Shown piece after piece: positions 2 to 51,573 of a stretch of 62,514 nucleotides of DNA. The notes beneath the pieces are model-generated. The model was not told the origin of the DNA. It made no database searches and saw only the letters and a program-made list of their open reading frames with translations. Positions within the stretch are counted from its first letter, which is position 1, and every line of letters begins with the position of its first letter. The DNA comes from Prevotella sp. (GTDB taxonomy: Bacteria; Bacteroidota; Bacteroidia; Bacteroidales; Bacteroidaceae), in the NCBI GenBank assembly GCA_017449025.1, contig JAFSKJ010000021.1, positions 1-62,514 on the forward strand, read 5' to 3'. The translations under genes and the position numbers were made by a program.

Positions 2-1621
2 CGTGCCAGGATCTATAGCAAGTCGCTTGTGGAGCAACGTCAGGACTCTGCCATCCTCATCTGCAAGGAACTGCTCGGTCACGACTCCGTGCGCAACGAC
101 GCTGCGGAACAGGAGAATATCCTTGACCTGCTCATTGCAACCAGCCGGGCCAAGCCCGACTACGAGCAATATATACATTGGGCCACTCAAAAGGCCGAAC
201 TCTGTCAGAAACAAGGCCAGGAGACAGAACGCTGGCGCAGCGAGGCCGACGTTGGCTTTGAGATGACGCGTCTGGGACAGGAGAACGAAGGTCTTGCCAA
301 ACTCGACGAAGCCATCAGCCATCTTGATGCTCCTGGCAGCATCGACCGCATGGATGCCTACATCGTTGCCGTGAAGCGTAAGATTAATGCGCTCAACGCC
401 CTGCGCCGCTACGAAGATGTCATTCCATTGGGGCAGCGCATCCTCGACCGGCTGGACCACTTCGAGAGCCATATCAAGGACTATGCCGAGGACAGCTACC
501 GTCTCTCGTGGAAAGATAACCCCAGCGAACGTGACCGCTATCTCGACTTCAGCCGAGCACAGGCATGGGGCTTTATGGCTATAGCGTATAGCCACACCCA
601 GAACCCTCCGAAGGGCGAGGAGAGCCGTTACCTAAGTCTGGCGAAGAAATACCTGGCGCTCTTTGATAACAGCAGCTACGGCAAGACCTTCTCCGCCCGC
701 CGCATGATTTCCCCCGCGCAGATGGCCTTGGGTATGTACGACGAGGCACTGGCCACCTACGATGAACTGGAGCACCGCATGGGTAGCGATACACTCAACG
801 AGAACTATGCCATCATACTGCGTTCCCGTGCCATCGCAGCCCGTGAGAAGAGAAATTTTGCCGAGGCTTTTGGCTACCAGACCCGCTACGCCGACCTCTC
901 GAAAGTACTCAGCGACAGCCTCATGAAGGGCAAGGCTCACGAGTATGCCGCCCGCTACCATGACCAGGAGCAGAAGTTGGAGATAGCACAGATCAATGCC
1001 GAGAACCAGCGCAAGACCATCATCATCTGGGCAGCGGTCATCATCATCATGCTTATTAGCATCTTTGCAACATGGCTCCTTCGCCAGTGGCGTGTCATCC
1101 GTCGCAAGAACCTCGTGTTGGTTGAGCAGATTGGCGAGGCCATTGAATACAAAGAGAAATACGAGGCCATCATGGATGATGGTAAAAAGTCGTCTGACAC
1201 TAAGCGTGGGAAAGCCGTACCTGTAACGCCCACGACACCCGCTATAGAATCCGACCTGCTTTCGCTTGACGACATTTCCGACGACGAGCTATTCCGCCGC
1301 CTACGCCACGCAATCAAACGCGAGCACCTTTACCTCGACCCCAGCCTGGACCGCCAGAAGATCATGGACATCTTCCAATTGTCGAAGCGTCGTGTGGGTG
1401 CAGCCTTCGCCCAAGGTTCAGAATTCAACAGCCTTGCCGATTTCATCCGCGACTGCCGTCTGGAGTATTCCTGTAACCTGCTCGTCACGCGTCCCGATCT
1501 CAGCATCAAGGAGGTTGCCGCCAAGTCTGGCTTCAACTATGCCAGCACCTACAGCGCCGACTTCAAGAACCGCTACACCATGACGCCCAGCAACTACCGC
1601 GAGCTGAAGGCGAAGAAGTAA
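2..1621 (+). CDS. TPR-type sensor with membrane helix and AraC-family DNA-binding domain (5' partial)
   Basis: Probable membrane-bound transcription regulator. The frame is open from base 2, so the start lies outside the window; the GTG at 29 is only the first possible start codon inside it. The visible part has about 325 residues of helical, TPR-like sequence (for example the 'MALGMYDEALATYDELE' stretch). A single transmembrane helix follows (IIIWAAVIIIMLISIFATWL, near residue 330 counted from base 29), then a charged linker, then a C-terminal AraC-type HTH of about 100 residues with the usual second-helix pattern 'SIKEVAAKSGFNYASTYSADFKN'. Membrane-tethered TPR-AraC proteins are common in Bacteroidetes. 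The ligand is unknown. The HTH is paralogous to that of the next gene (2108-2668), which suggests duplication. A gap of almost 500 nt with repeats follows, so the two are probably separate transcripts. Confidence 0.85.
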   Translation, partial: RARIYSKSLVEQRQDSAILICKELLGHDSVRNDAAEQENILDLLIATSRAKPDYEQYIHWATQKAELCQKQGQETERWRSEADVGFEMTRLGQENEGLAKLDEAISHLDAPGSIDRMDAYIVAVKRKINALNALRRYEDVIPLGQRILDRLDHFESHIKDYAEDSYRLSWKDNPSERDRYLDFSRAQAWGFMAIAYSHTQNPPKGEESRYLSLAKKYLALFDNSSYGKTFSARRMISPAQMALGMYDEALATYDELEHRMGSDTLNENYAIILRSRAIAAREKRNFAEAFGYQTRYADLSKVLSDSLMKGKAHEYAARYHDQEQKLEIAQINAENQRKTIIIWAAVIIIMLISIFATWLLRQWRVIRRKNLVLVEQIGEAIEYKEKYEAIMDDGKKSSDTKRGKAVPVTPTTPAIESDLLSLDDISDDELFRRLRHAIKREHLYLDPSLDRQKIMDIFQLSKRRVGAAFAQGSEFNSLADFIRDCRLEYSCNLLVTRPDLSIKEVAAKSGFNYASTYSADFKNRYTMTPSNYRELKAKK

Positions 1622-1995: not shown

Positions 1996-2038
1996 CTTAT
2001 GAAGTTGTGCAAAAAGGCTTGTGGAATTGTCACAGCTA

Positions 2039-2069
2039 TTGCGTGTACCTATTTTTATAGGTAACTTTG
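2039..2069 (+). promoter_or_regulatory. Bacteroidetes-type promoter for the AraC-like gene
   Basis: TTG at 2039-2041, a 20-nt spacer, and TAACTTTG at 2062-2069 match the Bacteroidetes primary sigma consensus. It lies downstream of the GTG at 2021, so translation must start later, at ATG 2108. Confidence 0.7.
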
Positions 2070-2107
2070 TAACGAAAGATTTAGCTACTCTAATCAAAAA
2101 AAGACAA

Positions 2108-2668
2108 ATGGAAGTTATACTTTGGATAGTTCTGTTAGGCTTTGCCATTTTGGTGACCGCACTTGTGGTCAGCCTTCACTATCATCGCAAGTATGCCCCC
2201 TTTTTACGCCAGTTGTCGAAGTTGTTGGCTGACAAAGATCTCGCTGGGACAGACAACACTTTAGACAATCCTATTGACAACGCCCAAAAAGAAACAGCAA
2301 AGGAGGATAAGACCGTTGAGGGTTCAGATGGTGAACTGTTCAAGCAGTTGACCGATGCCATCCGCAATGAACATTTGTACACTGTGCAGAAGTTCGGGCG
2401 CACGGAGCTGGTGGAGCGTTTCCACTTGTCGAGCAAGCGCGTCAGTACGGCGTTCTCGATGGCTGGCACATCGGTGCCTGAGTTCATCCGCGAGTGCCGG
2501 TTGGAGCATGCACGGCAGCTGATGGTCGAACGGCCTGACATGTCGCTGGTCGAGATTGCAACGGCCTCGGGCTTCATCCATGCCTCAACGTTCACCGTCG
2601 ATTTCAAGAACAAATATGGCGTCTCGCCCACGAAATACCGCGAGGATATGGCTAATGCAAACCAATAA
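2108..2668 (+). CDS. Membrane-anchored AraC-family regulator
   Basis: A 186-residue protein. Residues 4-27 form one transmembrane helix (VILWIVLLGFAILVTALVV), followed by a polar linker of about 45 residues and a C-terminal AraC-type HTH of about 100 residues with the second helix 'SLVEIATASGFIHASTFTVDFKN'. It has no N-terminal sensor domain, unlike the upstream TPR-AraC protein with which it shares the HTH. ATG 2108 was chosen because a good promoter lies at 2039-2069; the GTG at 2021 lies upstream of that promoter. It heads an apparent operon: its last 14 nt overlap the next small gene. It may need a partner, such as the small membrane protein or the lipoproteins downstream, to sense a signal. 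That role is inferred from context only. Confidence 0.8.
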   Translation: MEVILWIVLLGFAILVTALVVSLHYHRKYAPFLRQLSKLLADKDLAGTDNTLDNPIDNAQKETAKEDKTVEGSDGELFKQLTDAIRNEHLYTVQKFGRTELVERFHLSSKRVSTAFSMAGTSVPEFIRECRLEHARQLMVERPDMSLVEIATASGFIHASTFTVDFKNKYGVSPTKYREDMANANQ

Positions 2669-2936
2669 CGACATCCTGCTGATTCTTATTGTGGTCATCC
2701 TCGTGCTGACTATCATCATCGCCGTGCTGCTGTGGCAGGTTCAGCGGCGCCGCCAGTTGCTGGAACGGCGGCGCGAGGTCATCGAGCGCGAGAATCGCGA
2801 GGCCGAGGCACTAATCAGGGCGCGCGAACAAGGCATCGGCGACGACTTCCCGAAATTCAGCGACATCGAAAGCGAGACAGAACATCCCCAACTCACGATT
2901 CCGTTTGATATAACGAATAAAACTATTGAGATATGA
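2655..2936 (+). CDS. Small single-pass membrane protein with charged helix
   Basis: A 93-residue protein. The N-terminus is short and polar, then residues 7-26 form a strong transmembrane helix (ILLILIVVILVLTIIIAVLL), then a highly charged Arg/Glu helix (about residues 29-60) likely to be a coiled coil, and a short acidic tail. It starts 14 nt before the end of the AraC-like gene and ends with an ATGA overlap with the next gene, so translation is probably coupled. No family was recognised. The design (membrane helix plus charged cytoplasmic coil) suggests a regulatory or scaffold subunit. The next gene begins with a similar membrane-plus-coil segment. Confidence 0.65.
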   Translation: MQTNNDILLILIVVILVLTIIIAVLLWQVQRRRQLLERRREVIERENREAEALIRAREQGIGDDFPKFSDIESETEHPQLTIPFDITNKTIEI

Positions 2937-4189
2937 CAACCGATGTAATGACTTTTGCGATTCTGGCTGTGGCGATGCTGCTGTTCGCCATTGCCTGGAA
3001 TCTTTACGTCCAGTGGCGCACGCAGAGGCGCAGGCTGGATGAATTGGAGCGTGAGGTGGCCGACGCCATCAGCCGCCACATCGAACTGCTGTCTGCCGTT
3101 GCCACGGTGTTGGTGACGAATGGCAGCATTGCTCTCGCCGCCGTGATGATGCTCGCCGCCTGCACGAAGGAGGGCGACACCATCTATGAGTGGGACCCTG
3201 ACGAGCCGAAAGCCAGCACGGCGCCGCTCGTCACCGTGATTTACGGACAGGACGCATTAGGCGACCGCTCGTACAACGACCTCATCTACCAGGGCGTGGA
3301 GGAGGCGGCAGCCAAGTACGGCCTGCGCACCATGCAGCTCTCGCCGACGAGCTACGAGGAGGGCCGCGGCTACCTGCAGAGCATGTTCCAGACGGTGAGT
3401 CAAACTCTGAACGACTCCGTGCGCCGCCTGTTCATCGTCTGCGCGGCGGGCTACGACGACTACATCCGCCAGAACAGCCACCTCTTCGACAGCAATCCCA
3501 ACGCCGACCTGCTCTACTTAGAGACGCCCGAGCCCCTCGCTGCCGGCGGCTCCACGCTCTACCTGCCCTACTACGGGGCGATGTACGAGGCCGGCGCCAT
3601 CCTGCCGGTCATCAACGACCTTGCCACACTCATCGTCTCCAATCCCGAGGATCAGACCGTGGTCGGGGCCGCCAAGGGCTTTACCGACGGCTTCCAGACC
3701 GACTACTACCGCGTGGAGTACGAAGATATGTATATGACGTGGGAGAAGAACCTCAAGACCCTCTATCTGGCCGAGCATACCGGCCAGGGCTACAACATCG
3801 CCGACTCCACGGCCCTGAAAGTGCTCAACGAGTGCGAGGGCACCATCATCCCCATCTGCGGCGGTTCGGGCTACACCATGATGTACCTCTGCGATGTCAC
3901 CTTCAGCAACAGTTATGTGGGCATCGACGTCGAGAAGACTTCCTACTGGTGCCACATGTCGATTCTCAAGCACATCGATCGCGCCGTGGGGCTCTGCATC
4001 GGCCAGTGGCTCTCGCCCGAGGGCATGCCCAAGCATCAGGTCTTGGGACTGAAGGAGGGCTACACCGGCGTGACGCTCAATCTGCAAGACTTTTATTTGG
4101 AACAATATAATAAGTATATCCCCGAGACGCTGCGCCAGCAGATTCACGAGGATGCCGTAAGAAAGGAGGCAGCGTATGAGAAGAAGTAA
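2933..4189 (+). CDS. BMP/PnrA-like substrate-binding lipoprotein with an N-terminal membrane extension
   Basis: A 418-residue protein read from ATG 2933, which overlaps the previous stop (ATGA). Residues 6-25 form a membrane helix and residues 30-50 a charged coil, like the preceding small protein. A second hydrophobic stretch then ends in a lipobox (LAAC, Cys77), followed by acidic residues and a domain resembling basic-membrane-protein/PnrA binding proteins: 'GDRSYNDLIYQGVEEAA' near the start and 'VLGLKEGYTGVTLN' near the end. In that family the domain binds nucleosides or other small ligands outside the cytoplasmic membrane. A lipobox at residue 77 is abnormal. Either translation starts at an internal GTG (3107 or 3113), giving a short signal peptide without positive charges, or two genes have fused. 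No ABC permease or ATPase is nearby, so a sensing role is as likely as transport. Confidence 0.7.
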   Translation: MTTDVMTFAILAVAMLLFAIAWNLYVQWRTQRRRLDELEREVADAISRHIELLSAVATVLVTNGSIALAAVMMLAACTKEGDTIYEWDPDEPKASTAPLVTVIYGQDALGDRSYNDLIYQGVEEAAAKYGLRTMQLSPTSYEEGRGYLQSMFQTVSQTLNDSVRRLFIVCAAGYDDYIRQNSHLFDSNPNADLLYLETPEPLAAGGSTLYLPYYGAMYEAGAILPVINDLATLIVSNPEDQTVVGAAKGFTDGFQTDYYRVEYEDMYMTWEKNLKTLYLAEHTGQGYNIADSTALKVLNECEGTIIPICGGSGYTMMYLCDVTFSNSYVGIDVEKTSYWCHMSILKHIDRAVGLCIGQWLSPEGMPKHQVLGLKEGYTGVTLNLQDFYLEQYNKYIPETLRQQIHEDAVRKEAAYEKK

Positions 4190-6584
4190 GATGGATGATG
4201 GAAGATGGATGATGTGGCTGTTCGCAGCACTATTCACTATGAGTTGTTCACTTTTCACTTCCTGCAAGACGGAAGACGACAAGGTTGTGATCCAGACACA
4301 GCATCAGTGGGTGGAGAAGAAGGTGGCGGTGGTCTATCCGAACCGCAACGCCATGACCAAGGCGCAACTGGAGCGCACCGCCCAGTGGTTCCTCGACAAC
4401 TTCCAGGAGGCGCAGCTCTCCACCGGCGTCTGCGTGCGCCTGAAGCTGGAATGGTACGACGAGCTCACCGCCAACCTCGACGCGCTGAGCACGCAGCTGG
4501 CCAACGACCCTGACGTGGTGGCCATCGTCGGCCCCTTCAACAGCAACAGCCTCGAGGTCTTCGCCGAGGCCTGCCAGCAGACCGAGAAGCCGCTCATCGC
4601 GCCGACCGCCACCAGCGAGGAGATCATCCGCCGCTACGCCGTGCCCACGCAGAGCGGCACGCGCACCGTGCGCCCCTTCCTCTGGTCGCTCACCGAGAGC
4701 GACGTGGCCTTCGCCGAGGTTGTCATGTCGGCCTACGCCACCATGTCCCAGCGCCACAGCTTCATCACCCCCTCGGCCATCGTCTTCTCGCCCGACAACG
4801 TCTATGGCAAGACCTTCTTCGACTGGGCGCCGTTCCAGGCCGAGAACCTCGGTATCGACATTTCCGACAACCTGCAGTACCGCTCTACCGACGAGCTGCT
4901 GCAGCAAATCAAGGCCCATCTCTATACCGGCGAGGGTGACATCTTCACGGCCCTGTACTCCAACTTCTGCGTCATCGAGACCATCGACCAGCTCTGCCAG
5001 GTCACCGCGTGGCGCCGCAAGTGCTACATCGACTTCATGGAGGTCAACGACTGGTTAGGCCTGCCCGACACGACGCCCTACGACGACCCCGCTTACGACA
5101 ATATGGCCGCCGAGATCTCGGCCTATCGCCGCGTCTATTTCGCCCTGAGCGACTTCAGCCAGGAGGAAATCAACGCCCTCACCGAGCGGCAGCGCGCCAT
5201 GCTTCTTCAGTACGAGGGTTTTTCTCCTTACGCCGACCCCACCACGGGTTTCGAGATGAGCTACGAGCGTAAGTTCGGCGTCAAGCCCACCTTCGAGGAG
5301 TGCAAGTTCTACGACGGCCTCCTGCTCGCCGGCCTCGCCTGCCACAAACAGGCAGTGGCCGGAGATTCCGGAGTTTCCGGAGATTCCGAATCGTCCGCGA
5401 ACATCGCCTTCAATCAGGCCATCTACGACCTCACCTTCCCCAACGCCGACGCCAGCCTGAGCGCCACCGTCTGGGACGCCTCTCCCATGGCGCTCTACCT
5501 GCAGTCGCTCGACAAGGGTCAGGTGCCGCAGTTCCGCGGCGCTTCGGGCAATATCGCCTTCGATGCCGAGAGCTGCGCCGCCGCTGCCGGCACCACCTAC
5601 GTCCACTGGCAGATCTACGACGGCCAGGTGAAGTTCCTCCGCTACTTCAGCTCGAAGGGCAACCACCGCACCGGCGAGGCCACCGTGGCCTGGAAATATC
5701 TCTACGACGAGAACGTCGCCCAGCAGCACTTTGCCGAGCAGGCGCAGGACCAGGAGGCCGCCATCGACTACGCGCCGCTCACCGGCCAGTACGCCCTGCT
5801 CGTGCACGCCAGCACCGAGTTCAAGAACTACCGTCACCTCTCCGACGTGCTCAGCGTCTATCAGCAGCTGAAGCGCAGCGGGTTCGACGACGACCATATC
5901 ATCCTCATCGCCGACCGCTCCGTGGCCGACGACCTGAAGAACCCCGAGCCCGGCACCGTGCGCGCCACCATCGACGGCCCCGACCTCATGGCGGGCGCCC
6001 ATATCGACTACGACGCCTCGCAGCTCTCCGCCGTCGAGGTGCTTCGCATCCTCATGGGCCAGCGCAGCGACAAGCTGCCCGTGGTCATCCCGCCCGACGC
6101 CGGCCACAACGTGCTGCTCTACTGGAGCGGTCACGGCCGCAGCCTGAACCACGGCGGCGCCAACGAGTTCCAGTGGCGCGAGAAGCCCCACCACCAGGGT
6201 GTCACCGCCCAGCTGCTGCGCGAGGCCGTCACCACCATGCAGCGCAACCACGGCTTCCGCAAGCTGCTCATCGTGGCCGAGCCCTGCTACGGCGAGTGCG
6301 TGGTCACCGACCTCGACGGCATCCCCGGCGTGCTCGCCATGACGGGTGCCAACGCCCAGGAGCAGTCGTGGGCCGACAACTGGAACCCCTCCGGCTCGTT
6401 CTGGATGAGCGACCGCTTCACGCAGAACTTCGTGACGGCCCTCACCGAGAATCCCGCCATCACCTACCGCGACCTCTACCTCTACTGCGCCCAGCACACC
6501 CTCGGCTCCCACGCCCGCGTGGTCAACGCCGCCCACTTCGGCAACCTCTACCACACCGGCCCCGCAGAGTTCGTGAGGAAGTAG
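4176..6584 (+). CDS. Lipoprotein fusing a substrate-binding domain to a C13 (legumain/GPI8-like) cysteine peptidase domain
   Basis: An 802-residue protein overlapping the BMP-like gene by 14 nt. The signal peptide ends in lipobox LFTSC (Cys30) followed by an acidic stretch, so it is a lipoprotein, possibly surface exposed. About residues 45-520 resemble type-1 periplasmic binding proteins of the branched-chain amino-acid family ('VVAIVGPFNSNSLEVFAEA', 'KPLIAPTATSEE'). About residues 539-790 match peptidase C13: 'NYRHLSDVLSVYQQLKRSGF' with Asn551, then 'NPEPGTV', 'YWSGHG' with His653, and 'VAEPCYGE' with Cys704. These correspond in order and spacing to Asn58, His164 and Cys206 of human PIGK, the GPI transamidase catalytic subunit, so the triad appears intact. 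Ligand-gated proteolysis or transpeptidation is a reasonable hypothesis. Substrate and partner are unknown. Neighbours point to a signalling role. Confidence 0.8.
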   Translation: MRRSKMDDGRWMMWLFAALFTMSCSLFTSCKTEDDKVVIQTQHQWVEKKVAVVYPNRNAMTKAQLERTAQWFLDNFQEAQLSTGVCVRLKLEWYDELTANLDALSTQLANDPDVVAIVGPFNSNSLEVFAEACQQTEKPLIAPTATSEEIIRRYAVPTQSGTRTVRPFLWSLTESDVAFAEVVMSAYATMSQRHSFITPSAIVFSPDNVYGKTFFDWAPFQAENLGIDISDNLQYRSTDELLQQIKAHLYTGEGDIFTALYSNFCVIETIDQLCQVTAWRRKCYIDFMEVNDWLGLPDTTPYDDPAYDNMAAEISAYRRVYFALSDFSQEEINALTERQRAMLLQYEGFSPYADPTTGFEMSYERKFGVKPTFEECKFYDGLLLAGLACHKQAVAGDSGVSGDSESSANIAFNQAIYDLTFPNADASLSATVWDASPMALYLQSLDKGQVPQFRGASGNIAFDAESCAAAAGTTYVHWQIYDGQVKFLRYFSSKGNHRTGEATVAWKYLYDENVAQQHFAEQAQDQEAAIDYAPLTGQYALLVHASTEFKNYRHLSDVLSVYQQLKRSGFDDDHIILIADRSVADDLKNPEPGTVRATIDGPDLMAGAHIDYDASQLSAVEVLRILMGQRSDKLPVVIPPDAGHNVLLYWSGHGRSLNHGGANEFQWREKPHHQGVTAQLLREAVTTMQRNHGFRKLLIVAEPCYGECVVTDLDGIPGVLAMTGANAQEQSWADNWNPSGSFWMSDRFTQNFVTALTENPAITYRDLYLYCAQHTLGSHARVVNAAHFGNLYHTGPAEFVRK

Positions 6585-6686
6585 GAGGTAAAAACGCGCT
6601 CTTTGACATACTGAGACAAACGGATAAAATCTGTAGGATTTGAAATATTTCTCGCCGCGAGGCGACGAATCTCAGGAAAATTGTGT

Positions 6687-6694
6687 ATCTTTGC
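6687..6694 (+). promoter_or_regulatory. -7 promoter element of the AAA/nuclease gene
   Basis: TATCTTTG followed by GCACGCG is a good -7 element. No clear -33 element was seen. It lies about 100 nt before ATG 6797 and inside the longest upstream extension of the frame, arguing against a start before 6797. Confidence 0.55.
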
Positions 6695-6796
6695 ACGCGA
6701 AAGCGTGCGAGACTCGGCGGCGCCTCTGCAATTGGAACTTGTTCCATTGCTCTCGGCTTGCACGAGCCTTGCGGCGTGAAATCATTCTACAACGCG

Positions 6797-8389
6797 ATGG
6801 GTACATATATTAATATAGGTAATGCAGGGTTCCAGCGAGCCAGGAACAGTGAGTATGTGGATAAGTCGATGCTTATCTCTGTGGTGAACAAGACGCTCTT
6901 CACGGAGCGACAGTTCAGTTGCGTGTCGCGTTGCCGCCGTTTCGGCAAGTCAATGGCCGCCAAGATGCTCTACGCCTACTACGACCATTCGTGCGACTCG
7001 CGCCCGCTGTTCGCCGACCTGGCGATAGCTGGCGACCCGACGTTCGAGCAGCACTTGAACAAGTACGCTGCCATCTATCTCGACATGACGAACTTCGTTT
7101 CCCAATATAAGGACGACAGCATCGTGGAGAAGATGGATGCAACGCTGTTGGAAGACGTGAGCAAGGCCTATCCGGACGTGCCAGTGACCGAGAAGGATGG
7201 TCTGATGGACTACCTGCTTCGTGTCAACGAGGCTAAGGAGGAACATTTCGTCTTCATCATCGACGAATGGGATGCCATCTGCCGTGAGTTCAAGCCTGGC
7301 ACGAAAGGTATGGACGACTACCTCAACTGGTTGCGCCGCATGTTCAAGAGCCAGGACGGCATGAGGGTGTTCGCCGGTGTATATATGACGGGCATCCTGC
7401 CTGTCAAGAAGTATAAGACGCAGTCGGCTATGAACAACTTCCAGGAGTACTCGATGGTGTCGCCGCGCAGCATGGATCGCTACTTCGGCTTCACCAAGGA
7501 CGAAGTGCGGATACTGGCCGAAAAGTACGGCATGGACTTCGACGAACTGGAGAAATGGTACGACGGCTACCAGATTGGCGGTCAGTCCTCGATATTCAAT
7601 CCTAACTCGGTGATGCAAGCCCTCGACAGTTTCTGGTGTGATAATTACTGGAACCGCACCGGCGCCGTGGATGCCATAGCTGGCTATATCCGCATGAACT
7701 ACGAGGGGCTGAAGGACGACATTATCCTGATGCTGGCCGGTGGCCGCTGCAAGGTGAATCCTATCGGCTTCAGAAACGACCTGTCGGAAATCTACGACCG
7801 CGACGATGTGCTTACGGTGCTCATCCACCTGGGCTACCTCAGCTACGACCGCGTCAAGAAGGAGTGCTACATCCCCAACTTGGAAGTGAGCTACGAAATG
7901 GAGAGCGCGGTGAAGAGCAACAACTGGGCCGGCGTCGTGACTGCGCTCCAGGATTCGGAAAAGCTGCTGCAGGACACCCTCGACGGTGACGAGGAGGCCG
8001 TGGCCCGTGCCATCGACGCCGCCCACGACGAGAACACCAGCATCCTCTCCTACAACAACGAGAACTCTCTGGCCTGCGTGCTCTCGATAGCCTACTACTA
8101 TGCCCGCAACGACTACGTGATGCACCGTGAGCTGGCAAGCGGAAAAGGCTTCGCCGACATCGTGCTTATCCCGCGCAAGAACGTGGAGTCGCCCGCCATC
8201 GTCGTGGAGCTGAAGTTCCGGCAGGACGCCGATGCCGCCATCGACCAGATCAAGCGTCGGCAGTACCCCGCCAAGGTGGCGCAGTACACCGACAATCTGC
8301 TGCTCGTCGGCATCAACTACGACCGCGACACCAAACAGCACACCTGCCACATCGAGACGTACGACCGCAACGTGCTCACCGCTCAATAG
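6797..8389 (+). CDS. AAA-ATPase-like protein with C-terminal PD-(D/E)XK nuclease-like domain
   Basis: A 530-residue protein of the AAA-ATPase-like / PD-(D/E)XK type common in multiple copies in Bacteroidetes. The N-terminus has a Walker A-like loop 'CRRFGKSMAAK' (around residues 44-54) and a Walker B-like 'FVFIIDEWDA' (around 149-158). The C-terminus has 'GKGFADIVLIP' and 'AIVVELKF' (around 445-475), supplying the D and ExK residues of the nuclease fold. Biological function is not established; roles in defence or mobile-element biology have been suggested for the family. The start at ATG 6797 (MGTYINIGN) fits the family's usual N-terminus, and a promoter -7 element is at 6687. It is monocistronic, with a terminator at 8427. 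The Walker A has Cys at the start of the loop region where Pro is more usual. Confidence 0.85.
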   Translation: MGTYINIGNAGFQRARNSEYVDKSMLISVVNKTLFTERQFSCVSRCRRFGKSMAAKMLYAYYDHSCDSRPLFADLAIAGDPTFEQHLNKYAAIYLDMTNFVSQYKDDSIVEKMDATLLEDVSKAYPDVPVTEKDGLMDYLLRVNEAKEEHFVFIIDEWDAICREFKPGTKGMDDYLNWLRRMFKSQDGMRVFAGVYMTGILPVKKYKTQSAMNNFQEYSMVSPRSMDRYFGFTKDEVRILAEKYGMDFDELEKWYDGYQIGGQSSIFNPNSVMQALDSFWCDNYWNRTGAVDAIAGYIRMNYEGLKDDIILMLAGGRCKVNPIGFRNDLSEIYDRDDVLTVLIHLGYLSYDRVKKECYIPNLEVSYEMESAVKSNNWAGVVTALQDSEKLLQDTLDGDEEAVARAIDAAHDENTSILSYNNENSLACVLSIAYYYARNDYVMHRELASGKGFADIVLIPRKNVESPAIVVELKFRQDADAAIDQIKRRQYPAKVAQYTDNLLLVGINYDRDTKQHTCHIETYDRNVLTAQ

Positions 8390-10301: not shown

Positions 10302-10367
10302 ATAATGTATAACAATTAAAACAACGTGATTATGCGAAAGATGTTTCAATGGGCGATGGCCGCAGCC
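10302..10367 (+). repeat. Duplicated leader plus signal-peptide start, copy 2
   Basis: Sixty-six nt identical but for one base to 8619-8684, covering the leader and the first 12 codons of the gene at 10332. Confidence 0.85.
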
Positions 10368-10898
10368 ATCTTGTGCAGCACAGTGATGTTCTCTGCTTGC
10401 AGCAAGAGCGACGACGAGAACAAACTGCCCGAGACGCTGACGGCGGAACAGCTGGCGGGACTCTGGGTGACCGAGTACGCCGAGAGCGGAACCGACGGCC
10501 AGCTATCGTGGACGCGCGCCCTGGATGCCTACCGCTTCGAGGCCGACGGCACGGGCTACTACGAGTGCTACCTGATGGACGCGGGCAAGTTCGTAAAGGC
10601 CACCTCCGTGCGCGACTACGGCGCGCTGCACTTCACCATCAGCGGCAACACCGTGACCGTGAAGGGCGACCGTAGCAACAAGACGCAGACACTGACCTAC
10701 GCCGACGGCAAGCTGACAGCGCAGGGCAAGAACCTTCTGAAGGCGATTGCCGAGCAGCAGACGCTCATGGACCAGCTCTATGCCGACTGGCAGGGCGCGA
10801 ACTCCGGCGACGACGATGACAACAACAACGGCCTCAACGACTTGAACGGCAACGTGGACGTGAACAGCGGCGGCGGGGGAGTGAACGTGGTGAGATGA
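10332..10898 (+). CDS. Lipocalin-like surface lipoprotein, paralogue of 20404-20952
   Basis: A 188-residue lipoprotein. The signal peptide MRKMFQWAMAAAILC ends at lipobox FSAC (Cys23), followed by SKSDDEN, a likely surface-export signal. The mature part has a lipocalin-like beta domain ('LAGLWVTEYAES', 'YRFEADGTGYYECYLMD', 'FTISGNTVTVKGD', 'LTYADGKLT') and a low-complexity Asp/Asn/Gly tail. It shares these blocks in order with the lipoprotein at 20404-20952, so the two are duplicates bracketing the giant gene. Its leader and signal peptide instead match the gene at 8649, so it looks like a mosaic: signal region from one source, domain from another. Ligand unknown. Probably co-expressed with the giant gene 85 nt downstream. 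Confidence 0.75.
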   Translation: MRKMFQWAMAAAILCSTVMFSACSKSDDENKLPETLTAEQLAGLWVTEYAESGTDGQLSWTRALDAYRFEADGTGYYECYLMDAGKFVKATSVRDYGALHFTISGNTVTVKGDRSNKTQTLTYADGKLTAQGKNLLKAIAEQQTLMDQLYADWQGANSGDDDDNNNGLNDLNGNVDVNSGGGGVNVVR

Positions 10899-10983: not shown

Positions 10984-13900
10984 ATGCGTATGAAAAGAAT
11001 TCTGTTCTTGATGGTCTGCCTGCTGGCAATCGCGCAGGGGGCCTGGGCGCAGACCGAAGTGGATTCGGAAAGTGCGCTGAAGGACGCGCTTGGCGGCAGC
11101 AGCCCCATCAGCATCAAGCTGACGGCGGACATCGCGCTGACGGAGCGGGTGGCAATCCCGGAAGGAAAGACTGTGACGCTGGACCTGAACGGTCACACGC
11201 TGCAGCGCACCGAGGAGGGCTACCACTGGTACTACATGGTGATTCACCTGCTGGGGAACGCCACGCTGACCGTGAACGACGGCAGCGGCACGAACAGCGG
11301 CCGGATTACCGGCGGCCATGCCTACGGCGGTGGCGGCATCTACTGCGAGAAGGGCTCTAAGCTGACCTTCAACGGCGGCACCATCATCGGCAACTCGGTG
11401 AGGAACGATCCAGACGGCGGCGCTGGATGGGGCGGCGGCGTCCTTGTCAACGACGGTGCCGAGGCCACGTTCAACGGCGGCATGGTCCTGGGCAACGGCG
11501 CTCCCTTGGGCGGCGGCATCTACAACTTCGGCACGCTGACTATCGGCAACATCGTCATCTCCGGCAATACGGGCAACGACGGCGGCGCCATCTTCAATCG
11601 TGGCACGCTCAACATTACCGCCGGCAGCATCACCGACAACCTGGTCAACGTTCATGGCGGCGCCGGCATTACCAACTACGGCACCATCAACATGACGGGC
11701 GGCAGCATCACCAAGAACCGTTCGGCCAAGGCCGGCGGCGGCATCTGGCAAGGTGGCACGATGAACGTGCAGGGCAACCCCGTCATCAGCGACAACACCA
11801 GCAATGTCCACGGCAGCGAGGACGTCTATGTCAGCAACCCGATTACCGTGACGGGAGCCTTCACCAAGGGCGCCCACATCGGTGTCTATCCGTGCACGCT
11901 CAACTTCGTCATGACGTCGGGCTATGGCACGCACAACGCGGGTACGCCTATCGACCAGTATTTCTTCTCTAATATCTCGTACTATGCTATTACCGCGAAC
12001 AGCAGCGGCGAGGCCATACTGGCAGTGAACAGCGCCAGCAAGCAGCGCTACATCACCGACGTGATGGTGGTGGGTGCTGAAAAGGACGAGGAGGCCAAGG
12101 CCTTGTGCGAGGAATACGCCCAAGACGGCTGGACGCAGCTTCCCACCGACCTGAACGAGGGTTCGGGCGGGCAGTACGTCTATCTGCTCTACAAGACGGG
12201 CACCGACCCGGAGCGTGCCATCAAGGACCTGTACCTGCGCTGCGGCACGGGCTTCGGCAGCGACAACAGGCCGGAGACGCTGACGCACCAGGGGCTCACC
12301 TACACGCTGGCGGCCTACGACGGCTCCAGCCACATCAAAAGCAACAAGGGCGACCTGAACTCGGGCGTGAACGGCAGCGAAGATATCAACCTCTACTACA
12401 CGCGGGAGGGCTCGTCGGCTCCCCTCACGCGCCTCTGGTTCGACGGCGAGGAGGCGGGGTGCGTGGGCCGGAACGGCACCACCACGGCCTGCGACCTGAA
12501 CAAGGGCGCCGGTGGCGACTTCGTCTTCCTGCACATCTCACGCGAGCTGTCGCCCGAGGACTTTGGCGGCGGCACGGGCTCGGCTGACGACCCGTACATC
12601 ATTGGCACCACGGCCCACTGGAAAGAGTTAGCCGCAAAGGTGGGCCTGGGCGAGACCTACGTGGGACGCTACTTCTTTATGACGGGCTACGTCGATGCCG
12701 ACGGCATGCAGGTGGGCGGCAACTTCAAGGGAACGTTCGACGGCGCTGGCCGCACGCTGACCTTCAACGCGGGCAGCGAGGCCAACCCGAGGAACCAGGA
12801 GTGCGTGGCACCCTTCTACAGCCTGCAAGGGGCTATGATCAAGAACCTGCGCGTGGAGGGCGACATCTACACCAGCCGCCAGTATGCTGCGGGCGTGGCG
12901 GCGCAAGTCTCCGGCAGTGAGTCCACCATCCTGGACAATATTGTTTCGGCTGTCAAGATCCACTCCACCGTCGTTGGCGACGGCACGCACGGCGGACTTA
13001 TCGCCGTGAACTCGGCGCGACTGGAGATCAACAACAGCCGCTTCGAGGGCAGCCTCTTAGGTCCCCAGACGCGTTGCTGCGCCGGCATGGTGGGCTGGAC
13101 CACGGGGCAGGTACTCTTCTACAACTGCATCGTGGCACCGGCTGAGATTTCCCTCGACTTGTCATGGAGCACGTCCGAAATTATTAATGCCGTGCATTCA
13201 CAGGATGCCTATGGCAATTTCAGCCGTGCCTTTGCTCGAAATCCTGTCAATAGCACTAGCATATTTGCCACCAAATATCCTGAGCCCGTGTTCACTAAAT
13301 GCTACTTCACCCAACAGATTGGTGATCCAATATTAGTGCTGGGTCCTCAGGGCAAGCAGCTGTTCAGCGACGTGGCTGTGCCTACGGGCTGCTCTGTCTC
13401 CATCGTGGAGGAACCACTAATCACCGTCCACGGCAAGAACTGGTATCCGTCGGGTACGCATATCATCACCCAAGGAAACATGCCGATATTCGGTTACTGG
13501 AAGGAGACGAACGGCGCCTTTGTCAGCGACCCCAGCGCGCAAAACGGCTGGCACCTGATTCAGGACGTATCGAGCCCCATACTCGGCCTGTATAACGATC
13601 CTATCCGCCCCGAGCCCGAGGATGACTACAACATCTTTGGCACGAAGTACATCTGGCTGTCTCGCCACGACTACCACCTCTATGTCAGCAACGAGTGGCT
13701 GAACGAGAACTATCCCAGCTGGCACTTCGAGGACAATGACGCCGATGCCAACATCGTCCTTACGATAGACGGCGAAGATTGCAAGGCCACCATGGCCATC
13801 TGGCACTTCGAGAGCGACTACGTGAACGGCAACACCGCCTACATCATGAACGACCTGGTGGGCAACTGGTATGGCCACACGCACCTCATCGGCATCTCCC

Positions 13901-16900
13901 CTCGCGCCTTCGGTGCCAGCACGGCGCTGAAATACGTACGCTTTATTGACAGCGACGCCTACCTCTACAACCAGAACTCCAAGCTGAAGCTGTTCATCGA
14001 CAAGGAGGCCTTCTTGGACTGCCCGAACCTGGAGCAGCTGCAGATAGTGCAGTACACCACCGAGGGCACGAACCACTACGAGGCGATGACTCCCGACCAG
14101 ATAACGTATATCGGTCCCAATGCCTTCACCAACGTGTCGCCGAACTTCACCATCAGCGTACACCGCAGCCAGTACCAGAACTTCATGGCCAGCGAGACGT
14201 TCAAGCCCTGGCGCAGCAAGATCGTGGTTCACGAGTTCGACGGAGTGGACTTCACCGAGGAGGGCGTAAAGTACCACGTCTTCAAGGACGCTGAGGAGCG
14301 CGACAAGCTGCAGAGCGACGAGGAAGGCAAGGCGGAGATGATGGAGACGCTGAAGTGGTGGAACTCTGAGTACAAGAACTTCAACGCCGCCAACCTGCTG
14401 ACGACGAATGATGATAAAGACAACGTCTACTATTGCAGCATCGTGGGCGTGGACGACGAGGACATCGACGACGAGGGCGGCGTGATGCGCATCTATAACG
14501 ACCCGGGTGACACCTATACTTATAAGACCCTCCAGTTAGGACGCGACGCCATCCGCGGCAACTCGCACGTGAAGTACATCGAGTTCTGGCAGACCGCCGG
14601 CGACGCGGAGAACTCGTACTCCGACCTGAAGATGGTCATCCCCAACGGCGCGCTGGCGGGCATGTCGAACCTGAAGGAGTTGCGCCTGTTCTACTACGAG
14701 CAGGACGGCAAGGACCACTGGACGGCGCTGGGCCCGAAGGACATCATTCCGGGCAACAACATCTTCGGCGTGCCGAGCCCTGACGAAGCTGCCACAATGA
14801 CCGATGCGACCATGAGGAACATGAAGGCCGGTGCGCCTGAGGACTTCAAGATTATCGTGTCGAGCGACCGCTTCTCCGAGTTCCTGAACGACCCGAACTG
14901 GCAGCCCTACATCGGCATGATGGAGTGCCGCGATGACCCGAACGCACAGGGCAAGACGGCCTTCAGCGAGGGCGGCGTTACCTACGACTACGTGACCGCC
15001 CCGGGCGGCATCATCCAGACCACGCAGGTGGTGAGCCAAGACGTGTCGTGGTGGATGCTGCCAAAGCTCGTTGCCGAGGTGGCACTGATGACCACTGGCG
15101 TCGTCTATGCAGTAAAATCTGGTGGTGTGAAGAGTGCTGAAGCTGCCGCACAGGCTACAGCTGCCAAGATCGTAGCCGAAGGTGGAGCGCCCGTTGGCAG
15201 CAAGGTGATCTCCGGGACTACGGTTGATATAGCTACTAATGTTAATAGTTGGGTTAATATCAAACTTTCTCATACTTTATATTATTCCTCTTCAATCTGG
15301 ACAGCTACGGTGAAAGTTGTCGCAAAAATTGCGGAGGCTGGCGGCGCAGGCATCTATACCTACGCTACAGCTGCTGGGCATCAGCTGATAGGTGCGATAA
15401 TCGCCCTTTCCGGACTGACTATAGGTGAAGTCGGCCTTCAGATAGGAGAAAACGCCAAGAACCTGGAGCGCCTGAAGGAGCTGGGCGTCGTCAAGAACGG
15501 CAAGATTGACATCACGGAAGATGAGCTGAAGGCCATGAGCAACAAGGATTTCCTGCTGCTGGCCACGACCATGAGCAGTGCTTTCCAAATAACTTCTGAG
15601 GCCGTCCGCCGCTATCAGGACGAGCTGCTGAACACGCTGAACGAGCAGATGAGCCTGGTGACCGACGGCTGGAACGGCCCCGCCGTGAAGCAGGCCGGCA
15701 TGAACGCGCTGACCGCCGGACTCATTGCCAAGGAGGCGTGGGGCGGCACTGGCTCGTATAACGCCGAGAAGTTCAACAAGGGTATGCGCGAGCAGATTCG
15801 CGCCAACATCAACCAGGCCACCTCGAGGGCTGCGGGCTTCGTGATGGTTCACCCGCAGAAGAACATCGTTCACCACACCTACGTGAAGTCGTTTAACGGG
15901 GACTTTTTTGGCAACTGCGTCATCTACGTGGGTCACGACAACGACGGCGACGCCAACACGTCGAGCCGCGTGACCACGTTCGCCAAGAACGCCTTCACGA
16001 ACAGGACGGATCTGAAGAAAGTGGGGTTCCATGAGAACACGGGCGGCGCTACGAGCGAGTTCTCGTCGTCGTTCATCTGCGCCATCCCCGACTATGCCTT
16101 CAAGGGCTGCACGAACCTGACGGAGTTCAGCCTGATTCTCTCAACGGAGGAGAACGGCGAGTACGGCCTGGGCCCGGAGAACTTCATCCTGGCCGGTGAC
16201 AGCATCTTCTGCGACGTGGATACGCTGAACTTCCACATTATTATAGATGAGGCGCGCAAGGACGAATTCTTAGCCAGTGAGTCGTGGAAGCCGTATGAGA
16301 GGTTCTTCCAGTATCGCGAGGCGGTGCCCAAGAACGGCAGTACGCTCAACAACTACGGTGCCTGGTACGCCTACGCCTATGAGGGCAACTCCATCCTGAA
16401 GGAGAGCTCAAGCCAGGGCCACACGATCCAGCACGTATTGGTTAACAACCCCGACACGGACTTCCTAAAGGACCACAACGGCGCGCTGAAGATCACCGTG
16501 GATATCGGCACAGGCAACAACTACCAGACCGACTACGTGCGCACCGGCGCCTTCCGAGGCAATCAGATGCTGCAGTATGTGAACTTCACCGACCTGGACT
16601 ACGGTCACAACAACTATTCCGACTTCGACATCGAGCTGAAGGACTACTGCTTTGCCAGCTGCAGCAACCTGAAGTACCTCGACGCACTGTACTTGGTGAC
16701 CGACGCTGTGCCTAACATCATGAAGCCCATCACGCCGGCGATGCTGAAGATAGGCAAGGGCGTGTTCGACAATACGAACGCGAAGATTCGCATGATGCCA
16801 AAGCAGCTGAAGGCGTTCGAGGCCGACGCAAACTGGGCCGCCTACAAGGACCGCTTCATGACCTGCATCGTCAACCCGGGCGACGAATATGTGCGCAACC

Positions 16901-19900
16901 TCTTAGAGGATCTGCGCTACCATGACTATACGGCATGGGGTACCGACGCCAGGAACTGGGACAAGTACATCGACTTTAGCCGCATACTCGACAAGAGTCA
17001 GGGCTTCAACTGGTTCAGCGGCGTCTTCAAAGGCAACGACGACATCCGCTCGTTCGGCGACTTCAAGTACTGCGAGAGCATAGGACTCGACTACATCGGC
17101 GTATCGTGGTTCGAGGGCTGCGATAACTTAGGCAACATTGAGCTGCCGAACACCGCACGGCGCATCGAGGCCCGAGCCTTCGCCTCCTGCCCCAGCTTGA
17201 GAGCCATCACCCTGCCCACGCAGGTGGCCGAGATTCAGAACGACGTCTTCGCAGGCTGCTCGAACCTGAATACCATCATCGTGCCTTCGGGCAAGCCCGC
17301 CACGCTGAAGGGCACCAACCAGTTCGAGAAGAACAGCGGACTGAAGATTTACGTGCCCGACTCGGTGGTCAACCTCTACAAGCAGCAGTGGGCTGAATAC
17401 AAGGACTACATCGTCGGCATAAGCAAATACCCATTCAGCAAGGTGGTCACCGTGACCGCTCCCGGCCAGCTGGCCGACAAACTGGGCTTGAGCATTGTCG
17501 AGGGCAAGTCTGGTGGATGGTCGGCAACGCAGGTGCGCTGGATTAACGGTCCCTACAGCCTGTACGACTCGCTGACGGTCAGCGGCCCGCTGAACGGTCG
17601 AGACCTGTCAGTCATCCGCTACATGGCCGGCGCCGACGCGTGGAACAGCGACCCGACCGACGGCAAGCTGCGCTACCTGAATCTGTGGAACGCTCAGCTG
17701 AAGAAGGACACCCGCTGGTCGTACAACTGCGATGGCGAGGACGAATACACCGATGCCGACAACAAGGTAGGCGACTACCTGTTCGACTGCTGCACGGCTC
17801 TGGAGACCGTCATCCTGCCGAAGTCGGTGACCTACATCGGCGAGAACGTGTTTGACACGGCCACCGGCCTGAAGCGCGTCGCCGTCGGCCGCAACACCAC
17901 GGAGGTGGAGTGCGACATTCTGCAAGACCTGGATGACTACGGCGGCATCGATGAGCTGGTGTTCCTGACCAATCAGCACGTCACCAGCGACTACAGCGAC
18001 CCGTGGGAGGCACCCATCCAGAAAGTGTATGTGCCGAGGAGCCAGATGGGCGAATACATGAGCGACGACAAGCTGAGCTCGCGCGCACAGAGCATCACCT
18101 CGCTGTTCGACGACGACCACATCCTGTTCCGCACGGCTGACTACGGCGGACTGTTCTTCCCGACGGAAATCCGCGAGGCAGAGAACGTGGAAGGCATCTT
18201 CAACGGCGACCTCGAGCTGAAGGACTTCTCGGAGTTCCAGAAATTCCAAGGCGTGAAGTGGCTGGGCGACAAAGCCTTCAGCGGCTGCTCGAACCTGAAG
18301 ACCATCACGCTGCCCGGCTCTGTGGAGTACATCGGCAAGGGCGCCTTCAACGGCTGCTCGACACTGGACAGCCTGCTCGTCGACTGCGACAGCATCTTCA
18401 CGCTGGAGCGCGACGTCTTCGAGTCGCTGCCCTCGGACTTCCGCATCTACGTGCCGAAGTCGATGATTGCCAAGTACCAGGAGCGCTGGAGCCAGTATAA
18501 GGACCACATCTTCGTGGACGAGCGCGAGTATTCGAACGCCGACATCATCACCGTGACGCTGGACAAGCCGAACACGCTGCACGAGAAGTTAGGCCTGGAG
18601 GTAGAGCTGTCAGACTTCTACCACTGGCTGGAGGCCGTGAAGGGCGACTACAGCCACGTCAAGAAGCTGAAGGTGATAGGCCCCATCTCGGGAACCGACT
18701 TCGAGCTGATGCGCTACCTGGCCGGCTACACGCTGTGGACGAAGGAGACGAACTACTTCGGACAGTTAGAGTACCTCGACCTGTACGACGCACAGATTGT
18801 GGAGACCGACAACGACGGCTCGGAAGAGACCGACGGCGGCGTGATCCGTCAGAATGCCAGCATGACCGACAACGTGATGCACAAGCACGCCCTGAAGAAG
18901 GCCATGAAGCTGAAGACGCTCATCCTGCCGAGGACGTGTAAGGAGATTGAGAAGCGCGCCTTCCTGCAGTGCGACAACCTGGAGACGGTGGTCTTCGGCG
19001 ATGACATGGAGGAAATCGACTGGACGTGCTTCGACGACTGCAGCCAGATGCGCTATACCTACTTCCTGTGTACCAAGAAGCCGAAGATTACCATCGACTC
19101 GCGCTACTGGTTCGACAACGACTACAGCCCGACGTGCGACGCCATGTATGTGCGCCCGAGTCTCTACCGTGACTATCTGGACGATACGGACTACACCACC
19201 GAGCACCGCACCGTGAAGTACACGAACCTGATATCGAAGGGTGCATTCAACGACGACGAGGCCTTCTGCGCCTTCGCACAGCATGCTGTCTCGTCGCTCA
19301 ACGACCTCGTGATGGTGAGGTCGGTGGACGGCTGGTTCGACAACCACCACGCCATCAAGGATCTGACCACGCTGCGCTACACCAAGGTGGGACGCCTGAA
19401 GAAGAACGACTTCGGGAAGCTGACACAGCTGGAGCGACTGGCCGTGTCGCTGAACACCGACAGCATCGAGGCCGGAGCCTTCCAGAACTCGCAGAACCTG
19501 CGCTTCGTGGACTTCCTGGCCGTGGAGTCGTCGATGGCTGAGAAGCTGAAGGACGGCGGACTGGCCGACCTCGGCATCGACCTGCAGAAGACGCTGGCAT
19601 ACGTGCCGCTGACCTACGGAACGACCGAGGAGACGAACGTCGTCACCGGCAGCGCTGACAACGGACTGATAGCCCACAACTACCGCCTATACGACGGATG
19701 GGACTACACCGTGCCTTACGCCTTCCAGACCAAGACGGTGGAGAACTCGCGCACACTGCCTAAGAGCGACGCACCGTACACCGTCTGCGTGCCATACACG
19801 ATGGAAGTACCTTACGGCTGCAAGGCTTACACGCTGAGCGACCGCGATGGCAACCAGTTGGTGTTCAAGGAGATTGAGGGTCAGATGGAGGCCATGCAGC

Positions 19901-20403: not shown

Positions 20404-20952
20404 ATGAAAAAGTATATTTGGATAATGCTCGCTCTGCTCGCCTTCACGGCGTGCAGCAGCGACGACGACGACAACAAGGTCGAGAACCTGACCGTGCAGC
20501 AGCTCGCCGGCCTCTGGGCTGCCGACTACGCCGAGAACAAGACCGAGGGCGAACTGCACTGGACCCGCGTCGTGGCGGACTACCTGTTCCGCGCCGACGG
20601 CACCGGCTACTACGAGTGCTTCCTGATGGACGGCGACAACTACGTCGGCGCTGAGTCCGCACGCGGCGAAGACGGCGAAGGCCACTTCCACTACACCATC
20701 AGCGGAAACACCGTCACCGTCACCATCGACAAGACCGGCGAGACATGGACGCTGACCTATGCCGACGGCAAGCTCTCCGACCCGGAGCGCATCGCCTTCC
20801 AGAAGGCCACCACCGCCCAGCAGACACTCGTCGAGCAGCTCTACGGCGAATGGCAGAAGGCCAACTCCGGCACCAAGGACGACGGCACGACCGTCAAGAC
20901 CGACGTCACCGACAGCTACACCGACGAGCCTGCCCGCGTCCGCCAGCGCTAA
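20404..20952 (+). CDS. Lipocalin-like surface lipoprotein, paralogue of 10332-10898
   Basis: A 182-residue lipoprotein. The signal peptide MKKYIWIMLALLAF ends in lipobox FTAC (Cys17), followed by SSDDDDN, a strong surface-export-like signal. The mature domain matches the protein at 10332 block by block ('LAGLWAADYAEN', 'YLFRADGTGYYECFLMD', 'YTISGNTVTVTID', 'LTYADGKLS', 'LYGEWQKANSG'). It begins 6 nt after the TGA closing the read-through tail of the giant gene, so all three genes are likely one transcript. Function and ligand unknown; a partner or anchor for the giant protein is possible because copies sit on both sides of it. Confidence 0.75.
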   Translation: MKKYIWIMLALLAFTACSSDDDDNKVENLTVQQLAGLWAADYAENKTEGELHWTRVVADYLFRADGTGYYECFLMDGDNYVGAESARGEDGEGHFHYTISGNTVTVTIDKTGETWTLTYADGKLSDPERIAFQKATTAQQTLVEQLYGEWQKANSGTKDDGTTVKTDVTDSYTDEPARVRQR

Positions 20953-48587: not shown

Positions 48588-49205
48588 TTATTCGGGCATG
48601 AGCACCACTGTTACCGACCTTGCTGCCTGTGCTCCCATGACAAGCACCTGTGCAATGTCGGCAGTCTTCGACGGGCCGCTGATGAAGGTTCCATAGCCAT
48701 ACTGGTCGAAGAGGTCGAGTCCTGACTTCGGGTCGCGCTGCGCCAGTCGCGCGTAGGCCTCGTGCATGTTGTTGACAATCTGAGACTTCGGTAAGAGTAT
48801 TACCAGATTCTCGGATATGAAACAGACCGCTTTCTCTTTCATCTGCTGCGGAATCCACACGCATGCGTTTTCGGCTACGCCAAACATGCCACGGATGACA
48901 CCAACGTCGGTGCCGTTGAGGTCGCGTGCACGGCCCACCTCGTCGGGATTGCGCGTGGCGATGGTAATCTCGGGCAGGTTCGACGCAATCTCCTTGGCGT
49001 CGGGGTACAACTCGCGGATGAGTTCGTTGATGTCGCGACCTGGCTCCAATTCTACTGTATTGCCGCCAACACTCTTGGTCATGTTCATGAACTGCAGAAG
49101 CGGGTTGGTGTAGGTGATAGCCTTGATGTCGCTCAGGTCGGGCATGTCGTACCGTTCGCGCACATTTGCGCGATACTTCTTTAATATGTCTTCTTTACTT
49201 GCCAT
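48588..49205 (-). CDS. lutC: LutC-like LUD-domain protein of L-lactate oxidation
   Basis: A 205-residue cytoplasmic protein with one LUD domain: 'ELYPDAKEIASNLPEITI', 'DVGVIRGMFGVAENACVWIP', 'GTFISGPSKTADIAQVLVMG', the last being a family signature. With LutA and LutB it forms the iron-sulphur L-lactate oxidation complex that makes pyruvate. It is the last gene of the lctP-lutA-lutB-lutC group, separated from lutB by 77 nt that contain six copies of an 8-bp repeat. thrS follows from its own promoter. Confidence 0.88.
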   Translation of the reverse strand: MASKEDILKKYRANVRERYDMPDLSDIKAITYTNPLLQFMNMTKSVGGNTVELEPGRDINELIRELYPDAKEIASNLPEITIATRNPDEVGRARDLNGTDVGVIRGMFGVAENACVWIPQQMKEKAVCFISENLVILLPKSQIVNNMHEAYARLAQRDPKSGLDLFDQYGYGTFISGPSKTADIAQVLVMGAQAARSVTVVLMPE

Positions 49206-49232
49206 AGTCTTTTTTCTTTATAACGTTATCGT

Positions 49233-49280
49233 TATTTCGATATTTCGGTATTTCGATATTTCGATATTTCGGTATTTCGA
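49233..49280. repeat. 8-bp tandem repeat between lutB and lutC
   Basis: Six copies of TATTTCG(A/G) in a row, just after the lutB stop and about 28 nt upstream of the lutC start. The same unit occurs between lutA and lutB (50664-50687). Copy number could vary by slippage. Confidence 0.9.
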
Positions 49281-49282
49281 AA

Positions 49283-50647: not shown

Positions 50648-50663
50648 AATCTTTCTTTTTCGT

Positions 50664-50687
50664 TATTTCGATGTATCGATATTTCGA
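50664..50687. repeat. 8-bp repeat between lutA and lutB
   Basis: Three units, TATTTCGA, TGTATCGA and TATTTCGA, of the same repeat as at 49233-49280. They fill most of the 42-nt gap between the lutA stop and the lutB start. Confidence 0.8.
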
Positions 50688-50689
50688 AA

Positions 50690-51421: not shown

Positions 51422-51426
51422 AATTT

Positions 51427-51571: not shown

Positions 51572-51573
51572 TC

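Follow-up and report, generated by a model that had tools for sequence, protein, structure and literature searches.

Introduction

To our knowledge, the enzymes of peptidase family C13 that have been studied are all eukaryotic. Bacterial members are recorded in the table of a review. In Bacteroides and Phocaeicola, surface lipoproteases of another family, C11, activate two-component cholesterol-dependent-cytolysin-like (CDCL) pore-formers and BcpT, as described in sections of PMC11169675 and PMC9308784, and a structure paper of 2010 reports that two MACPF lipoproteins of Bacteroides thetaiotaomicron form a pair within a putative operon rich in lipoprotein genes (excerpt of PMC2954219). In the open-licence literature of PMC we found no description of a bacterial protein fusing C13 to a periplasmic binding protein (PBP) domain, or of a C13 gene beside a MACPF gene. 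Here we analyse such a fusion, the lipoprotein PBP-C13, encoded at 4176..6584 of the forward strand in 62,514 nucleotides of Prevotella sp. DNA (contig JAFSKJ010000021.1 of assembly GCA_017449025.1, all of it; "the window" below). Our preferred reading, to which we give a probability of about 0.45, is that PBP-C13 is a surface asparaginyl endopeptidase with a sensor of LivJ/LivK fold, paired with the lipoprotein c1, that cuts neighbouring lipoproteins at a linker Asn.

Results

A C13 peptidase domain joined to a LivJ/LivK-type fold

PBP-C13 has 802 residues: a signal peptide (about residues 1-29) before lipid Cys30, a ligand-binding domain of LivJ/LivK type (residues ~47-490; 4314..5645, + strand) and a Peptidase C13 domain (residues ~535-802; 5778..6581, + strand). 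The C13 domain matches PF01650 at 121.9 bits against a cut-off of 22.8, over positions 1-241 of the 258 in the profile, and a Pfam scan of the protein up to E 1 gave C13 and no C11. Structure comparisons, all made with VIA-align 2, gave the caspase-type (CHF) fold for the C13 domain and the type I PBP fold, of LivJ/LivK type, for the N-terminal domain. The original prediction, made from the letters of the window, had proposed a lipoprotein that joins a branched-chain-amino-acid-type binding fold to a clan CD peptidase of family C13; this is borne out, with the catalytic residues intact, and the absence of a clan CD match that would have spoken against it did not occur. NCBIfam holds no name for the protein, and the PBP part falls under the Pfam cut-offs of PF13458 and PF01094, the latter of which is passed by the own-genome paralog of L122 (L numbers denote loci and G numbers genomes).

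We aligned the active sites of 79 family members of at least 700 residues, a set that includes the window, its copies and its own paralogs. The catalytic His653 (in WSGHG; 6132..6134, + strand) and Cys704 (in EPC; 6285..6287, + strand) are invariant, and Asn551 of the NYRH motif (5826..5828, + strand) is Asn in 77 members and Asp in two. Arg553 and Glu702 are present in all 79 and His554 in 78. The original prediction would also have failed with a fold that keeps Asn551, His653 and Cys704 apart; superposition of a model on legumain, at 1.6 Å over 255 residues, speaks against such a fold. In that superposition the last model residue, 762, aligned at legumain 286.

The Asn pocket (S1) of legumain is made of Arg44, His45, Ser216 and Asp231 (excerpt of PMC4357240). 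Pairing these positions by reading the alignment to the family profile, we found their counterparts Arg553, His554 (the pair next to Asn551, matching Arg44-His45) and Ser731 each in 56 of 56 sequences, and Asp746 in 52, with Asn in the other four. From these matches to legumain, specificity for Asn is to be expected, so that the C13 domain should cleave after Asn. The family C-terminus reads T.GSHV, as in legumain; because PBP-C13 ends there, it lacks the legumain C-terminal prodomain.

In the PBP part, the APTATS motif, whose T146 is kept in 55 of 56 sequences, presumably resembles the amino-acid site of LivJ. The N-terminal half most likely senses an amino-acid-like ligand, and ligand-controlled proteolysis by PBP-C13 is plausible.

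The domain had further been called GPI8-like, and as a special kinship this did not hold. Human PIGK scores 103 bits to mouse legumain and 69.7 bits to PBP-C13, and the family profile finds legumain (1.3e-41) better than GPI8 (8.4e-38) and PIGK (6.6e-36). Against mouse legumain, 145 bacterial C13 domains have a median score of 86, vs 68 against PIGK. The highest scores of any bacterial domain are 106 for PIGK, 111 for the GPI8 of 9ub7 and 128 for mouse legumain; legumain is therefore no nearer to PIGK than some members of the bacterial family are. In a maximum likelihood tree of 31 bacterial and four eukaryotic domains, which is unrooted, drawn from its midpoint and has long joining branches of which the program warns, the bacterial set stands apart from GPI8 plus legumain (99/98). 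Bit scores, family profile and tree together lead us to reject membership of a GPI8/PIGK subgroup. Within the bacterial part, the window falls in a clade of 10 (99/96) and the other three C13 copies encoded by its genome in a separate group of 13 (89/87).

Distribution and surface signals

Four C13 genes are present in the genome of the window. Matches to PF01650 at E 1e-6, weak ones included, occurred in 10 of 395 genomes of a phylum sample, 19 of 295 of an order sample and 95 of 299 of a genus sample; a Caulobacter control genome also matched. A scan of 37 loci (L085-L121) and three regions of the window's own genome found 18 proteins with both PBP and C13; the other four C13 profile matches in that scan were weak (at most 21.8 bits) and had no PBP part, and therefore the PBP part accompanies every strong C13 domain examined. 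Loci were collected for 80 of 93 relatives, in sets that overlap in part. Where the sources of relatives are named they are fore-stomachs of goat, sheep, cattle, water buffalo, yak and deer, many records giving codes only, and Xylanibacter ruminicola D31d is among the strains with relatives.

We found a lipobox in 129 of 138 C13 proteins, 114 of 115 c1 proteins and 31 of 32 MACPF proteins. At least two acidic residues lie at +2 to +6 after the lipid Cys in 123/129, 89/114 and 28/31 of these, respectively, and in PBP-C13 the lipobox is followed by KTEDD, read from the sequence, which fits the family pattern. Acidic signals of such a kind have been shown to direct the surface export of Bacteroidetes lipoproteins (section of PMC5080379). 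We predict that PBP-C13 is a lipoprotein on the outer surface of a Prevotella-like bacterium that lives in the stomachs of ruminants.

The partner lipoprotein c1

Overlapping the start of PBP-C13 by 14 nt is the 3' end of c1 (2933..4189, + strand), a lipoprotein of PnrA/Bmp fold by structure comparison; the PF02608 cut-off of 24.1 bits is not reached by c1 (12.6) or by its L034 counterpart (13.6). Residues 1-76 form an N-terminal extension with a likely membrane helix before the lipobox at Cys77, and similar extensions occur in L065, L066, L074 and L078. Among C13 genes with room for an upstream neighbour, c1 is directly upstream in 62 of 68 and 50 of 60 (two locus sets), the two genes share 4-14 nt in 43 of 64 pairs, and the pair is tandemly duplicated in L043, L126, L132 and L145. 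PBP-C13 and c1 would be made as a two-gene module. Homology between the two proteins was considered and rejected, at a profile comparison probability of 2%.

MACPF genes near C13 genes

All five MACPF matches in the window's genome are on three contigs that bear C13 genes, and its paralog loci code for MACPF lipoproteins. For the genus sample we used the 92 strongest of 143 C13 matches (E ≤1.1e-15), leaving out 51 weaker ones, mostly of other frame lengths. These 92 lie in 60 genomes, and 122 MACPF matches lie in 47. Both families occur together in 25 genomes (Fisher P 2e-8; odds ratio 7), and 19 of the 25 have a close MACPF-C13 pair. G653, which nearly duplicates the window's genome, was kept in the sample. 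Within strong-C13 genomes, 44 of the 68 MACPF matches are within 12 kb of C13, where ~1.2 would be expected assuming 3.3 Mb genomes and independent matches, and all 44 are on the strand of C13. Because MACPF genes occur in groups, the P value for this proximity is too small. By eye, the MACPF genes often form a pair of ~800 and ~600 aa adjoining c1-C13.

Our iterated MACPF search drifted: of 51 flagged proteins, 42 have Pfam MACPF at E 0.01 and nine have no Pfam match, while BACON is found in 19. In the locus sets we counted flagged proteins only when they had a YGTH-like motif; on this count MACPF is present at 4 of 75 C13 genes in the similarity-based set centred on the window vs 19 of 65 in the family-based set. 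Two neighbours of unassigned family, c9 and c5, were considered as hidden MACPF proteins and rejected by profile comparison, c9 sharing a signal peptide only and c5 a BACON-like N-terminal part only; sequence searches at E 0.1 gave no PDB relative for either. A PADLOC scan of six proteins for anti-phage defence gave no match. As a separate observation, clusters of four to five MACPF matches occur at G643:C24, G651:C15 and G687:C29, in genomes without strong C13.

Candidate substrates and their linker Asn

Two lipoproteins of the window are candidate substrates. The first (10326..10898, + strand) is a Lipocalin_4-like carrier (18.4 bits, under the cut-off of 22.4) with linker Asn159 (QGAN, then S) and a short D/N/G-rich tail; the second is of the same type (20404..20952, + strand; no Pfam match at 0.01), with linker Asn154 (QKAN, then S). 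We found this carrier domain in 26 proteins whose C-terminal parts are unrelated, with a junction that is mostly GAN, GGN, GSN or similar (by eye). After removal of near-identical and incomplete rows, the junction [GAS]N[GASDN] is present in 18 of 23 carriers near C13 (on the same contig or locus) vs one of nine elsewhere (P 9e-4); three of the nine come from genomes without C13 and six from other contigs of C13 genomes.

Other neighbours also have an Asn between domains. In the long MACPF type it lies between the BACON-like and MACPF parts in nine of nine sequences. In family A5 the junction G-x-N (G133, N135) is invariant in 10 sequences, although another alignment pairs different Asn residues in some members. 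When four motif patterns were counted against shuffled sequences, [WF][GP].N occurred 74 times in neighbours vs 34.7 in shuffles; C13, c1 and other lipoproteins showed no such excess.

In two small families a conserved Asn lies 12-50 aa before the C-terminus. Cluster 6 (nine members; L034:6802-7338 and relatives) consists of small lipoproteins with a 12-residue, amphipathic-looking tail after the Asn (WPEEGN, then GFLKDILDGIKK); by eye, their genes adjoin one for a zinc-ribbon-like membrane protein of ~285 aa. Cluster 2 (19 members; L046:6532-7158, L050:6164-6805, L029) consists of lipoproteins of ~200 aa in which a conserved [WF]G[GD]N is followed by tails of 20-50 aa, several of them containing Cys, which are possible released peptides. 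A different interpretation is that short tails like that of cluster 6 are discarded sorting signals, and that the enzyme is a transpeptidase, like GPI8 or the plant asparaginyl ligases, joining the Asn end of co-encoded lipoproteins to a surface amine. We judge this very unlikely, since there is no special kinship with GPI8, the Asn is followed by hundreds of residues in other neighbour families, and no positive sign of attachment to an amine was found. By eye, no common sorting motif was seen at the C-terminal ends encoded by the downstream genes.

Regulators and other genes of the window

Upstream of c1 are two genes for AraC-type regulators, each with a likely membrane helix (by eye): one with a TPR-like N-terminus (29..1621, + strand; HTH_18 at 3.8e-13, TPR under cut-off) and a shorter one (2021..2668, + strand; HTH_18 at 4.6e-20). 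Between the latter and c1 is a gene for a small, likely membrane protein of 93 aa (2655..2936, + strand; start chosen by eye), in whose place L123 has a similar open reading frame of 124 aa. These genes raise the possibility of a signalling module, in which a ligand is sensed by both binding lipoproteins and C13 cuts a surface or periplasmic protein, informing membrane-anchored TPR/AraC regulators so that the operon is switched on. The L123 order of regulator, small membrane protein, c1 and C13 fits this. Counting the 6 kb upstream of each C13 gene, an AraC-type regulator is found for 19 of 75 genes in the similarity-based set and nine of 65 in the family-based set. For most C13 genes, however, no regulator was detected within that distance, and the export-type signals suggest that the C13 protein is outside the cell, distant from periplasmic domains; we regard a signalling module as unlikely.

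The C13 gene is separated from the lipoproteins that follow by an AAA-ATPase_like plus PDDEXK_9 gene (6683-8389, + strand), whose cluster, among 85 sources, has no members beyond the window and L004 and L005, both copies of this locus. A protein of 3108 aa (10984-20310, + strand) belongs to a cluster of giant genes, of median ~2,200 aa, that occur near C13 in 12 of the 85 sources, sometimes directly 3' of the C13 gene (L008, L060). Lipoprotein neighbours in the similarity-based set otherwise include metallophosphoesterases, leucine-rich repeat and beta-helix proteins, and unknown ones. Profile matches support an esterase-like neighbour (to 3h2g, 5e-20) and one like phosphatidylinositol-specific phospholipase C (PI-PLC; 6e-8). 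Elsewhere, the window codes for a protein of 2140 aa that contains a type I dockerin domain (31039-37461, + strand; 6.2e-8) and for a lactate-use cluster (48588-53178, - strand) with LUD_dom, LutB-like, CCG and L-lactate permease genes.

Discussion

The PnrA-like partner, the MACPF and other effector lipoproteins nearby and the linker Asn together point to maturation or release of surface effectors. In the mechanism that we propose, the LivJ/LivK-fold half would sense an amino-acid-like ligand and gate the C13 half, which would cut after Asn in the linker joining a lipid-anchored N-terminal domain to an effector domain. Depending on the operon, what the cut would release or switch on is a MACPF pore-former or else a phospholipase C, esterase, phosphoesterase or further domain.

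Several observations weigh against this proposal. First, MACPF is far from universal: of the 92 strong C13 matches, 26 have one within 12 kb and 66 do not, a MACPF gene is missing from the operon in the window, and MACPF occurs in 22 sampled genomes without strong C13. Second, the linker-Asn patterns were picked post hoc, after inspection, and G-x-N separates the carriers less well (13 of 23 near C13 vs one of nine; P 0.024). Outside C13 loci, some carrier-effector pairs that are PI-PLC-like (L186) or A5-like (L197, L201) resemble the inside ones by eye and have no motif, and the carrier domain is weakly enriched, at nine of 60 C13 genomes (seven of 58 when the window's genome and G653 are set aside) vs four of 60 without C13. 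Third, Asn is not enriched among conserved MACPF columns (3/100 and 3/69, against a background of ~5%), nine sequences of the short MACPF type have no conserved Asn before the MACPF domain, and the conserved Asn of neighbour clusters 1, 4 and 11 may be structural. The looser G.N[GASDN] is in excess in c1 too (97 vs 34.8 in shuffles), and hypervariability of cluster 2 tails past the Asn did not emerge (identity 0.31 vs 0.35 before it). Fourth, substitution of the putative C11 sites of BSAP-1 had no effect, in the portion of the published account concerned. Finally, the cargo of C13 operons is diverse.

This last point also favours the view that PBP-C13 is a general surface peptidase with a nutritional or housekeeping role, trimming dietary or own-surface proteins after Asn while the binding domains hold the freed amino acids or nucleosides; the effector neighbours would then reflect mere clustering of lipoprotein genes. 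LivJ/LivK and PnrA are indeed nutrient-receptor folds, downstream of PBP-C13 the window has an AAA-ATPase-like gene and genes for a Peripla_BP_4 lipoprotein and a carrier, and L053 has a SusC/SusD-like pair (by eye) ~3-7 kb upstream of c1. Clustering of MACPF near C13 far above chance, however, argues against it, and we consider such a nutritional or housekeeping role rather improbable.

A bolder extension of the effector-release proposal, which we put forward as doubtful, is a complement-like surface weapon system of ruminant-stomach Bacteroidales. Ligand-gated PBP-C13, with its PnrA-fold partner, would sense amino acids or nucleosides leaking from cells and then cut the conserved Asn linker. 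Lipid-anchored carriers would thereby let go of effectors that attack membranes and can replace one another: paired MACPFs, PI-PLC, esterases, and short peptides that are amphipathic or contain Cys. If true, this would be a bacterial counterpart of the complement cascade and of plant legumain-type peptide maturation. A large bacterial C13 family whose members contain their own ligand-binding domain and are tied to a partner lipoprotein, and some of them to pore-formers, would extend the ways in which clan CD proteases are controlled and give a testable link from ligand sensing to weapon activation on the bacterial surface. If the linker Asn is cut, new asparaginyl endopeptidases or ligases could also be drawn from this family.

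Comparison with known systems

PBP-C13 shares the fold of its N-terminal domain with LivJ/LivK receptors, and differs from them in being a lipoprotein with a surface-export-type signal that is fused to a peptidase; c1 has the fold of the PnrA/BmpD nucleoside receptors, and is likewise a lipoprotein with such a signal. Legumain is 23% identical to PBP-C13, which is bacterial and on a separate branch. Where legumain has a C-terminal activation peptide and LSAM prodomain, PBP-C13 ends with the catalytic domain; its additional parts, a PBP domain and a lipid anchor, are at the N-terminus. GPI8/PIGK, the catalytic subunit of GPI transamidase, is no closer to PBP-C13 than legumain is. The MACPF loci of Bacteroidales (BSAPs; BT_3433-BT_3442) resemble those near C13 in their paired MACPF lipoproteins and lipoprotein-rich putative operon, whereas the excerpt of PMC2954219 mentions neither a C13 gene nor a PnrA-like lipoprotein. 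Fragipain and doripain are likewise clan CD cysteine proteases and surface lipoproteins, and the job proposed for PBP-C13 is the one they perform on antibacterial toxins of Bacteroides, the closest precedent from experiment; they belong to family C11 and are specific for Arg/Lys, whereas PBP-C13 belongs to C13, and the sections of PMC11169675 and PMC9308784 describe for them neither a fused ligand-binding domain nor linkage to a toxin operon.

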